From a virus, in the IMG/VR virus record IMGVR_UViG_3300030012_002202, positions 1 through 24,481 of that record: a stretch of DNA of 24,481 nucleotides; one strand, given 5' to 3'. Below are positions 6,625 through 19,544 of this stretch, in pieces. Position 1 is the first letter of the stretch. Every line of letters starts with the position of its first letter. The translations under genes and the position numbers were made by a program. Under the pieces are notes generated by a model. The model saw only the letters and a program-made list of their open reading frames with translations. It did no database searches and had not been told where the DNA came from.

Positions 6625-6975
6625 TTATCCACCTAACAGCGTAGCTTTTTGAGTAGGAGCATCACCAATGACGCCTTTCGAGCTAGTCATAATGGTGCCG
6701 CCTTTTTTCTTTCTTTTCTTTTTGCCGCCCATATCGCCGCCCTCGCCGGAATAAGTCACATCGGCTGGGTTGGCAGCATCAACGACCTCAACTTGCTGCT
6801 GGGCTTTTAGAGCTGCATCAGCCTTTGCTTTTGCCTCAGCTTCAGCCGCTGCCTTAGCAGCTGCCTCAGCTGCCGCTCGCTGCTGTGCCGCAGCTGCAGC
6901 TGCTTGTTTCTTCGCTTTATTAGCGCCGGTTATGCTTCCAATACCCCGGCGAATTGTTCTGACTATGCCGCCCAT
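6625..6975 (-). CDS. Ala-rich coiled-coil protein between terminase and portal, C-terminal GVxxDAP..LLG motif
   Basis: A 116-aa protein. Residues 18-63 are almost wholly Ala, Lys, Glu and Gln, a long helix or coiled coil. Then come a short acidic stretch, a Gly/Lys-rich basic patch (GGKKKRKKKGG) and the C-terminal motif MTSSKGVIGDAPTQKATLLG. The N-terminus (MGGIVRTIRRGIGSI) is basic and amphipathic and could contact membrane or lipid. The C-terminal motif recurs in the neighbouring 82-aa gene, so the two proteins probably share a docking partner. I recall similar small proteins ending in LLG between terminase and portal in marine podoviruses, but know no assigned role. Its start overlaps the previous stop (TAATG). 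Confidence 0.65.
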   Translation of the reverse strand: MGGIVRTIRRGIGSITGANKAKKQAAAAAAQQRAAAEAAAKAAAEAEAKAKADAALKAQQQVEVVDAANPADVTYSGEGGDMGGKKKRKKKGGTIMTSSKGVIGDAPTQKATLLGG

Positions 6976-17859: not shown

Positions 17860-17894
17860 AAAAAAAGCCGTCAAAAGCTAATGCTTTCAACGAC
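17860..17894 (-). terminator. Rho-independent terminator adjacent to the tRNA 3' end in attP
   Basis: Read on the minus strand, GTCGTTGAAAGC (17894-17883) and GCTTTTGACGGC (17878-17867) pair over 12 positions (some G-U) around ATTA, followed by seven T (17866-17860). It lies 5 nt past the tRNA CCA end, so it may be the host tRNA terminator carried in attP. It would also stop late-operon transcription before the 84-aa gene and int. Confidence 0.85.
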
Positions 17895-17899
17895 TTGGG

Positions 17900-17924
17900 T
17901 GGCGGGAGTGACGGGACTCGAACC
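17900..17924 (-). other. tRNA 3'-end fragment (attP core homology)
   Basis: On the minus strand the segment reads GGTTCGAGTC, then CCGTCACTCCCGCCA: T-loop TTCGAGT, the 3' half of the T-stem, the acceptor 3' strand CACTCCC, discriminator G and an encoded CCA. The 5' half of the T-stem pairs at four of five positions, and no D-arm or anticodon arm was found upstream, so it is a fragment and not a full tRNA. Amino-acid identity cannot be assigned. The host target tRNA should have a 5' end like GGGAGTG. Confidence 0.85.
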
Positions 17925-18172: not shown

Positions 18173-18406
18173 CTACCTGAAGCGCCTCGTTTTTTTCATG
18201 ATGCTTTCGGGCTGCTTCGAGAACTGTTTGCCCTGGCGTTTCGCCTTGCGCTTCGCTCTCGTAGTAGCGGCATATTCCTTGGGGCTCAGAGCTTTGATAG
18301 CTGCTTCCGGCAGATACCGCTCGCCTGTCTCGCTGCTCTTCTTTCCGCTCTTGGTGCGCCATTTCTGTTTGCCCCAATTCTTCAATGACCGTTGTGGTGC
18401 GCGCAT
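18173..18406 (-). CDS. Small basic protein, DUF5872-like
   Basis: A 77-aa, strongly basic protein whose ATG overlaps the previous stop (TGATG). The pattern GKQKWRTKSGKKSSETGERY, then LPEAAIKALSPKEYAATTRA and GKQFSKQPESI matches what I remember as DUF5872, found in marine phages and large viruses with no known function. It is the last gene of the late operon before attP and its terminator. About 30% of residues are Lys or Arg, so DNA or RNA binding is likely. It is one of four consecutive tiny basic proteins. Confidence 0.68.
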   Translation of the reverse strand: MRAPQRSLKNWGKQKWRTKSGKKSSETGERYLPEAAIKALSPKEYAATTRAKRKAKRQGKQFSKQPESIMKKTRRFR

Positions 18407-18588
18407 CAGTCTCTATAGCCCCCGCCCCGCTTTTTATATTCCTTGGCCAGCAACTGAGCTTTCCGAGCACTCCACTTACCAGCGGCTGTGCCGTGCGTAG
18501 CCCTGCCCAGAATAGACTTATACAACCGCTTTCTCATGCCGGCCTTGGTGTAGTTGCCGGCCTTGTTTACCTGGCTTTTTTTGGCCAT
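18406..18588 (-). CDS. Small basic protein (MAKKSQVNKAGNYTK family)
   Basis: A 60-aa protein: MAKKSQVNKAGNYTKAGMRK at the start, then SARKAQLLAKEYKKRGGGYR at the end. Lys/Arg/Gly-rich, no cysteine and no membrane segment. I recall near-identical openings in many marine phage proteins without assigned function. Its ATG overlaps the stop of the 49-aa gene (TAATG) and its stop overlaps the next ATG (TGATG), so the three genes form a coupled unit. Probably nucleic-acid binding. Confidence 0.68.
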   Translation of the reverse strand: MAKKSQVNKAGNYTKAGMRKRLYKSILGRATHGTAAGKWSARKAQLLAKEYKKRGGGYRD

Positions 18589-18737
18589 TACTTTTTCTTC
18601 TTCTTGGCCTTCATGATTTTAGACTGCAGAGCCTTCGGCAGTGTCTTCTGCTTGGCTGTCAGTCCTGCTTTTTTCATGCCTGCCTTTTTCTTTGGACGGC
18701 CTCTTTTGCTTCCATATGTTCCTGGCCCCATTGGCAT
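18588..18737 (-). CDS. 49-aa Lys-rich protein
   Basis: A short gene with AAGGAG about 8 nt before ATG 18737. The product opens MPMGPGTYGSKRGRPKKKAG (containing an AT-hook-like GRPKKK motif), continues KKAGLTAKQKTLPKALQSKI and ends with a run of lysines. More than a third of residues are Lys or Arg. It lies 17 nt after the DUF6321-like gene and overlaps the next start by TAATG. It probably binds nucleic acid, perhaps in the AT minor groove, but this is inference. Easily missed because of its size. Confidence 0.65.
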   Translation of the reverse strand: MPMGPGTYGSKRGRPKKKAGMKKAGLTAKQKTLPKALQSKIMKAKKKKK

Positions 18738-18754
18738 CGCTCAATCTCCTTTGA

Positions 18755-19018
18755 TTAACATTTCCATCTACGCCTTGCGGCTTTTCCTCTGGGGCCAGTC
18801 CAGTTTTTAGATCTGGCACAGAAGCTCTTGCGCCTTTTGGCAGCCTTGCTGCCTGGCTTTACCTTGCCGGTCACTGGCGCTTTTAGTTTGCTGCCTGTAG
18901 CCCGGTTGTATTTGGCACGGCCTTTTGCTGTGAGGCCGCCACCCTGTTTGACCGAGCGCTTTTCACCGCGCCCGACAGACAGGTTTACAGATTTCTTTTT
19001 TGTCTTTGCCTTAACCAC
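18755..19018 (-). CDS. Small basic protein, DUF6321-like
   Basis: An 87-aa protein with a GTG start at 19018, overlapping the muramidase stop codon. It contains KKKSVNLSVGRGEKRSVKQG, then GGLTAKGRAKYNRATGSKLK, a SKAAKRRKSFCARSKNW piece and RGKAARRRWKC. This is the conserved layout I remember for DUF6321 proteins of marine phages: GGGLTAKGRAKYNRATGS..LK.PV, RRKSFCARM/S and a C-terminal (R)KW.C. Two cysteines (CAR and the terminal C) could bind a metal. Function unknown; strongly basic, so nucleic-acid binding is likely. Confidence 0.75.
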   Translation of the reverse strand: MVKAKTKKKSVNLSVGRGEKRSVKQGGGLTAKGRAKYNRATGSKLKAPVTGKVKPGSKAAKRRKSFCARSKNWTGPRGKAARRRWKC

Positions 19019-19544
19019 GGGCTAGCTCTATTGCTTGCTCAAGTGTTTCTTCATTGCGTCGCGTCCAGCCCTTGCCAAATGTCTCAAATGTTTTGAGGCG
19101 CTCATAGAAAGCCTGGCGCCGGCTGTACATATCTGTAATGAGTTTCTCTGCATCCTGAGCTACGATAGCGTTCAGCGTCATTGGGCCTATGCTGCCGTCA
19201 GCTGTGACGCCGATAATCTTTTGCAACGTGCGAGCTGACCGACCGACGCCGCTGTTCACAGCCCAGTCAAACACAGACCAGTCCAGCCCAGCTGGCAGCT
19301 TGTCGCCAGCTACCCGGTTCCAATATTCCTCGCGGTAAATCGCTGCGACGTGATTGTCTGGAATGTTCCGCATGGTTTCTTCTGTGACAACCGGCTCGCT
19401 GTCCACTGTCTCGGACAGCCACTTTTCATAGACCTTGGCCGTGATGCCTTTGTTGGTCATGCCGCCCGGATCGTCTGGGTGATTTACGAACCCGCCCTCG
19501 TGGTGTAGCAGCCAGGCCAGGCATTGCTCAAAGTTACCCTTCAT
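19011..19544 (-). CDS. Endolysin: GH108-type N-acetylmuramidase
   Basis: A 177-aa protein with LLHHEGGFVNHPDDPGGMTN and KGIT at residues 12-34, the GH108 signature with catalytic Glu16. The rest of the domain includes YREEYWNRVAGDKLPAGLDW. The C-terminal part (ADGSIGPMTLNAI near 115-127) fits the PG_binding_3 region that usually follows GH108. It cleaves the glycan backbone of peptidoglycan. No signal peptide is visible, so export depends on the holin encoded just upstream (ATGA overlap). The active-site Glu is present and the length is typical, so it should be active. Confidence 0.9.
   Translation of the reverse strand: MKGNFEQCLAWLLHHEGGFVNHPDDPGGMTNKGITAKVYEKWLSETVDSEPVVTEETMRNIPDNHVAAIYREEYWNRVAGDKLPAGLDWSVFDWAVNSGVGRSARTLQKIIGVTADGSIGPMTLNAIVAQDAEKLITDMYSRRQAFYERLKTFETFGKGWTRRNEETLEQAIELARG

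Follow-up and report, generated by a model that had tools for sequence, protein, structure and literature searches.

Two pairs of small basic phage genes with relatives in virion proteins and among head genes: a possible role on DNA at the phage head

Results

Four coupled genes at the end of the late region

Four very small genes, which code for proteins of 87, 49, 60 and 77 amino acids, lie between the endolysin gene and a candidate attP site in the window, that is, the whole stretch of DNA analyzed here. They form two co-inherited pairs, and we consider it on balance probable that they belong to a modular set of basic proteins whose target is the DNA at, or inside, the phage head. Since the window is a linear IMG/VR record, 24,481 bases long, part of the genome may be missing.

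All four genes are found in the minus strand. Gene 1 (18755..19018) has a GTG start and codes for 87 amino acids with a net charge of +29; it contains the DUF6321 domain (PF19846). Gene 2 (18588..18737, 49 amino acids, net +18) has no library match, its family is MPMGKGTYGSKRGRPKKK...LTAKQKTLPKALQKKIMKAKKKK. Gene 3 (18406..18588, 60 amino acids, net +15) belongs to phrog_17747, appears to be DUF5872-like and corresponds to one half of a two-domain cellular protein. The other half of the same protein corresponds to gene 4 (18173..18406, 77 amino acids, net +20), which belongs to phrog_14910. Lysine and arginine amount to 34%, 37%, 28% and 32% of genes 1 to 4; the other window genes examined have 6–18%, with net charges from -29 to +17.

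The endolysin gene (19011..19544, minus strand, Glyco_hydro_108 and PG_binding_3 domains) is directly upstream. Its end overlaps the start of gene 1, whose GTG lies over the endolysin stop codon (CGTGGTTAA). The ATG of gene 2 is preceded by the Shine-Dalgarno sequence AAAGGAG, while genes 3 and 4 have coupled starts, at TAATG and TGATG. About 280 nt after gene 4 there is a terminator-like hairpin (17865..17896, minus strand, 14 pairs and a T-rich tail), detected by pattern match, which is probably the end of the late transcript. A pattern search revealed no promoter-like site inside the four-gene unit. Because of the coupling, the hairpin after gene 4 and the lack of an internal promoter-like site, the simplest view is that the late transcript ends with these four genes.

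The candidate attP core, GGGAGTGACGGGACTCGAACC (17904..17924, plus strand), is a perfect tRNA-3'-end-like string, with 0 occurrences expected by chance. It adjoins the integrase gene and its flanks contain TTTGGCACAC repeats; an attP beside the island is plausible. A further small basic protein of the head region is coded at positions 6625-6975 of the window, between the portal and terminase genes: It has 116 amino acids, is rich in alanine and lysine, has a net charge of +10 and contains GGKKKRKKKGG.

Families and conservation

Gene 1 matches DUF6321 with 62.6 bits, the Pfam cut-off being 28.5. Genes 2, 3 and 4 have no Pfam match to this domain, and no other Pfam family, nucleoid and protamine-like families included, matches any of the four at E values up to 1. 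Genes 3 and 4 have strong full-length matches to phrog_17747 (E 1.4e-23) and phrog_14910 (E 1.8e-33), both families without known function. Genes 3 and 4 are tied to DUF5872 (PF19197, a profile of about 116 residues) only indirectly, at scores that narrowly miss the cut-off: Gene 3, gene 4 and the joined sequence of both from the window do not match it at the Pfam cut-off, and two fused relatives (L381 and L417) reach 26.4 and 25.4 bits, under the cut-off of 27.5. The first of these covers profile positions 2-94 of 116, and the DUF5872 profile, at these scores just under the cut-off, appears to span both the gene 3 and the gene 4 halves. We have found no mention of DUF6321 in the literature searched, and one paper that mentions DUF5872; a single query for DUF6321 gives 543 phage records.

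Gene 2 carries KRGRPKKK, and its family consensus keeps GRP. As a putative AT-hook, it presents the RGRP core in one copy only and no Pfam match. The preliminary description of this DNA had pointed out this GRPKKK string, together with four tiny genes rich in lysine and arginine, translationally coupled, between the endolysin and attP; we have found all of these in place. It had also suggested that at least two of the products match domains of unknown function; this has to be corrected, as gene 1 (DUF6321) is alone in exceeding a Pfam cut-off and genes 3 and 4 match nothing but PHROGs.

Homologues of the island genes are found in hundreds of contigs, and a single scan of IMG/VR gave 296 relatives of gene 2 in its candidate stretches. 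Short relatives of gene 2 adjoin gene 1 in Lederberg and HTVC022P. Median dN/dS values against near relatives are 0.03, 0.08, 0.12 and 0.08 for genes 1 to 4, many pairs being saturated, and they indicate purifying selection in all four. We have rejected a chance or compositional artefact, which is contradicted by the homologues and by dN/dS. In gene 4, 33 of 77 columns are invariant in 50 sequences, nearly all of them 69-85% identical to the window protein. Conserved residues include W, G, P and Q positions, not only K and R, which favors folded proteins, with a presumably specific binding, over plain polycations. The possibility that DUF6321 is a bacterial household gene has also been rejected: It is present in 0 of 14 control genomes.

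Co-inheritance of the four genes

We have studied co-occurrence with profiles from 326 loci, run over all ORFs, and have counted only those loci that are flanked by 1.5 kb or more at both ends. The loci are the best 80 matches of each scan, so they lean toward near relatives. Gene 3 is present in 51 of 51 gene 4 loci and gene 4 in 49 of 49 gene 3 loci, always in the same strand, while gene 1 is present in all 43 gene 2 loci. Gene 1 is often solitary, gene 4 appears in only 7 of 45 gene 1 loci, and the gene 3-gene 4 pair is also found without gene 1. The unit consists of two pairs, not of one fixed foursome. Both pair orders exist: genes 1, 2, 3 and 4 in 56 loci, genes 3, 4, 1 and 2 in 23.

The preliminary description considered the four proteins to be unrelated, acting as a nucleoprotein unit, and raised the question of whether their genes occur together. 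They do so within each pair, in 100% of loci for gene 3 with gene 4 and in 43 of 43 for gene 2 with gene 1. The word unrelated has to be withdrawn: Genes 3 and 4 are the halves of one cellular protein, and gene 2 keeps company with gene 1. For the same reasons, fusion in one pair and constant association in the other, we have rejected the idea of four unrelated genes thrown together. A nucleoprotein unit agrees with the strong co-occurrence and with the virion-associated relatives described below, but there are two pairs instead of a fixed set of four.

Non-island neighbors vary between loci, which indicates that the co-occurrence of genes 3 and 4 goes beyond phage kinship. Each of these neighbors is found in at most about 30% of the loci; the commonest one around gene 4 is the terminase small subunit family (36 of about 140 loci), and eight gene 3-gene 4 neighborhoods have no other gene family in common. 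The pair is found in HMO-2011, where the relatives of genes 3 and 4 are about 2 kb apart, in roseophages CRP-1, CRP-9, CRP-13, CRP-345 and CRP-603, in pelagiphages such as HTVC034P and Lederberg, and in the Methylophilales phages MEP401 and MEP402.

Other tiny basic genes accumulate around the pair. Considering same-strand ORFs of 40-110 amino acids, with genes 1 to 4 left out, 83 of 342 are strongly basic near genes 3 and 4, compared to 16 of 191 farther away (Fisher p = 3e-6). The recurrent members of the island are c20 (phrog_7595), c23 (phrog_16028), c44 (DUF5872), c28, c55 and c72. The tiny basic c20 (L258:6576-6857 and L078:3206-3490) accompanies genes 3 and 4. It has an RRxSFxAR motif in common with DUF6321 and weakly matches phrog_220, annotated as 'minor head protein and DNA pilot' (E 1e-4).

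Fused proteins in cells

When species genomes of bacteria and archaea were scanned, relatives of gene 4 turned up in chromosomes, where gene 4 and gene 3 form a single ORF. In SAR11 the order is gene 4-gene 3, with 138-142 amino acids. The order gene 3-gene 4, followed by a C-terminal Rho_N-like segment (about 165 amino acids), is found in Sphingomonas, Methylobacterium, Roseomonas, Aureimonas, Salinarimonas and Pseudomonas luteola. Rho_N is a nucleic-acid-binding domain; the Rho_N-like end has 21.9 bits, below the Pfam cut-off of 24.9, and is absent from the phage and SAR11 forms. Several MAG contigs also have the order gene 3-gene 4, with 131 amino acids; some of them have gene 1 nearby and are therefore probably phage. 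No NCBIfam family matches the fused proteins.

Of the 147 Pelagibacteraceae genomes that we sampled, 13 (about 9%) contain the full-length fused gene; in the Sphingomonas order the sample was 120 genomes, one of which has it. Its neighbors in SAR11 are SDR, TspO, FAD oxidoreductase and FolD genes. The fused gene is at 7986-8402 in L363, L380 and L371. An SDR gene is often adjacent to such genes, and some of them adjoin TspO and FAD oxidoreductase. S-CRES1 is the one phage of our set with a fused gene 3-gene 4: In this cyanophage, gp97 (L008:4842-5240) has 132 amino acids and adjoins c20. An uncultured proteobacterium (L376:7035-8600) has a 521-amino acid protein with the gene 3-gene 4 unit in the middle and unrelated flanks.

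The cellular fused proteins of SAR11, Sphingomonas, Methylobacterium and Pseudomonas luteola have the same domains as genes 3 and 4, and the gene 4 part is about 50-79% identical. On the other hand, they are single chains, in two domain orders, coded in chromosomes without phage neighbors, and the Sphingomonas type is less basic than the phage proteins (net about +10) and has an extra C-terminal domain. The fusion in cells is Rosetta-stone evidence for a joint action of genes 3 and 4.

Relatives in T4-like virions and among head genes

DUF6321 is the C-terminal domain of nine of the nine T4-like cyanophage proteins scanned (PF19846, E 3e-10 to 6e-23), and all nine genes are located between terS and terL. 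S-RIM32, S-WAM1 and S-SZBM1 have DUF6321 as a smaller separate protein at this position. The whole of gene 1 aligns with the C-terminus of S-CRM01 g34, at 67% identity; the C-terminal domain of this protein, as well as those of S-SCSM1_29, S-CREM2 ORF137 and P-RSM4_120, is homologous to the whole of gene 1. Six DUF6321-tailed T4-like proteins also contain a DUF5872-like domain (c44 profile, iE 1e-12 to 1e-14), and so resemble the islands of tiny genes; in other phages c44 has a tiny basic gene of its own, close to gene 1. The arrangement is different: T4-like phages have the modules joined in proteins of 365-926 amino acids, among head and packaging genes, whereas the window has separate tiny genes after the endolysin. 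Another large basic protein is found between terS and terL in S-SZBM1, gp082 (L328:1550-3673), with a DUF3008-like start and a match to the S-adenosylmethionine lyase domain near its end (E 7e-8).

Two of these fused relatives have been assigned to virions. Mass spectrometry of CsCl-purified S-CREM2 virions detected 4 unique peptides of ORF137 (PMC10665884, Table 3), which cover 4.1% of the protein; its DUF6321 domain is at 415-488 (E 3.5e-10), and the peptides need not fall inside it. The authors caution that carry-over is possible after CsCl purification (PMC10665884). S-SCSM1_29 is annotated as 'virion protein' in its record, and the virion proteins of S-SCSM1 have been determined by mass spectrometry (PMC9602691). 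The literature searched contains no report of genes 1 to 4 themselves in a virion. Trypsin would cut proteins so rich in lysine into very short peptides, and standard virion proteomics would therefore easily overlook such proteins.

In all six T7-like marine phages checked, DUF6321 is found inside the head genes, always adjoining c23, and in some cases with a gene similar to gene 2. In five of them (S-TIP37, S-CBP4, HTVC168P, Jormungand and HTVC022P) it is enclosed by scaffold and major capsid genes, and in P-SCSP1u it directly follows the capsid gene. In MEP401 the order is gene 1, gene 3, gene 4 and then directly terL, while in Venkman one gene separates DUF6321 from terL. The cryo-EM structure of P-SCSP1u presents a capsid shell of major capsid protein only; proteins embedded in DNA would escape this analysis.

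Profile and structure comparisons

We have compared 78 profile pairs with hhalign, c44 against its own T4-like copies having been set aside. The outliers are gene 4 with the W-rich domain of the DUF6321-tailed T4-like proteins (19.9), gene 1 with c20 (19.7) and gene 3 with c44 (19.6), the next value being 9.4. Their absolute probability is about 10%, below normal significance, and these links are suggestive only. The gene 4 model (pLDDT 84.6) predicts a small helical domain. When it was compared with viral model structures by Foldseek, the S-SCSM1 virion protein and the P-SSM3 DUF6321 protein were among the weak matches. No solved fold in the PDB matched the models of genes 3 and 4 (Foldseek and VIA-align). 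A sequence search of the PDB gave nothing useful, the best matches of gene 4 are designed 'Cake' proteins, over 12 residues only.

Discussion

According to the reading we favor, genes 1 to 4 would be a small island of late genes, timed with head assembly and DNA packaging, with basic products that associate with nucleic acids. They would represent stand-alone versions of the modules joined in the T4-like virion protein. Gene 1, with gene 2, and the gene 3-gene 4 pair would bind DNA, rather than RNA, through conserved basic helical modules. The four small proteins would be taken into the head together with the DNA or around it, or else be stationed at the packaging machinery; there they would organize, locally neutralize or protect the genome; they may also be injected along with it. 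The virion association proposed in the preliminary description is seen in relatives only, through S-CREM2 mass spectrometry, the S-SCSM1 annotation and the head location in T7-like phages, and we infer that it extends to genes 1 to 4 and to a packaging or protection role. Silencing of host DNA had also been suggested, but nothing in our analysis points in this direction.

One set of the four proteins has a charge of +82 and about 31 kDa, against 70,000 phosphates in a genome of 35 kb. Full neutralization of such a genome needs about 850 sets, which weigh roughly as much as the DNA itself, so bulk condensation or a main counter-ion role is unlikely. Local organization, protection of ejected DNA or help in packaging would fit better.

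We have considered other explanations, all of them with a low probability. The four genes adjoin attP and integrase in the window, and chromosomes carry homologues of genes 3 and 4 in 13 of the 147 Pelagibacteraceae genomes sampled, as well as sporadically in Sphingomonadales and other groups; the four genes might thus be attachment-site cargo (a moron or lysogenic conversion genes) exchanged with cells, which would act on the host nucleoid or stress state. This is unlikely: They are apparently part of the late transcript, overlap the endolysin gene and have no promoter-like site of their own, the integrase family is near only 11 of 122 gene 4 loci, and HMO-2011, CRP-13 and MEP401 have genes 3 and 4 without a recorded integrase nearby. 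We find it rather unlikely that the proteins are directed to RNA, binding late mRNA, ribosomes or transcription complexes and favoring late phage expression. Small basic domains, predicted to be helical, and the Rho_N-like C-terminus of the alphaproteobacterial fused form are consistent with it, but this end is missing from the phage and SAR11 forms, and DUF6321 in virion proteins would be left unexplained.

The position of the genes after the holin-like and endolysin genes, with coupling to the latter, suggests late cationic lysis helpers, released with holin and endolysin, which would disturb the outer membrane or aid the spread of progeny. In fact, a lysis gene is found within 3 kb in 41 of 122 gene 4 loci, but terminase genes adjoin equally many, 42 of 122 (37 loci have only a terminase neighbor, 36 only a lysis neighbor and 5 have both). 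DUF6321 is placed amid scaffold and capsid genes in T7-like phages and is part of virion proteins in T4-like phages, and the neighbors of the fused cellular gene (SDR, TspO, FAD oxidoreductase, FolD) are metabolic. The sequences are polar throughout, no membrane segment is evident and the residues of a folded domain are kept. We consider this explanation quite improbable.

For proteins acting on DNA in the head, the nearest phage kind is that of the T4 internal proteins, minus their defining capsid targeting sequence. IPI-IPIII and Alt have a role similar to the one proposed here, inside the head and delivered with DNA. T4-type internal proteins carry an N-terminal capsid targeting sequence, which is cut by the prohead protease (PMC7697877, PMC7411985). 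Such a sequence is absent from the N-termini of genes 1 to 4 (MVKAKTKKK, MPMGPGTYG, MAKKSQVNK and MRAPQRSLK), and we have found no homology between these genes and IPI-IPIII or Alt. Of the T4-like DUF6321 proteins whose sequences we inspected, S-SZBM1 gp084 alone has such a start. This protein (L328:3800-4297) begins with MKTFKQYITEA, and an upstream S-WAM1 ORF (L332:9001) with MKTFKQYIGEA, both of which we take to resemble the T4 capsid targeting sequence; as these are the only cases, we have dropped it as a general feature of DUF6321. Neighboring small ORFs in S-SZBM1, S-SCSM1 and S-B43 begin in a similar way (MKSFKSFLSES, MKTFKQFMSES and MKSFQDFLQES), and a search for leaders of this type could list prohead-targeted cyanophage proteins.

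In eukaryotic viruses, DNA is known or has been proposed to be coated by small basic proteins such as DVNP (PMC11953307). DVNP and the protamine-like proteins of eukaryotic DNA viruses are also small, very basic and common in marine viruses; nevertheless, they belong to eukaryotic viruses and have no sequence match to genes 1 to 4 in Pfam scans. For tailed phages, a paper on chlorella viruses states that there is no evidence of much DNA neutralization by basic proteins (PMC3281028). Small basic proteins that act on DNA in the head are known from only a few tailed phages.

DUF6321 and its companions are found in hundreds of records of cyanophages and pelagiphages, which are among the most abundant viruses of the sea. 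The link to virion proteins detected by mass spectrometry, together with the split versus fused relation with hosts, makes these ignored 'hypothetical proteins' directly testable. A wider and more tentative possibility is that marine phages of the T4-like, T7-like and pelagiphage types package shared modular basic nucleoproteins (DUF6321, DUF5872-like, gene 2-type and others), whose modules are swapped as tiny genes, as a joined virion protein and as genes in host chromosomes. If this is true, it would amount to a 'phage chromatin kit', whose joined form would serve the bacterial nucleoid in host chromosomes.
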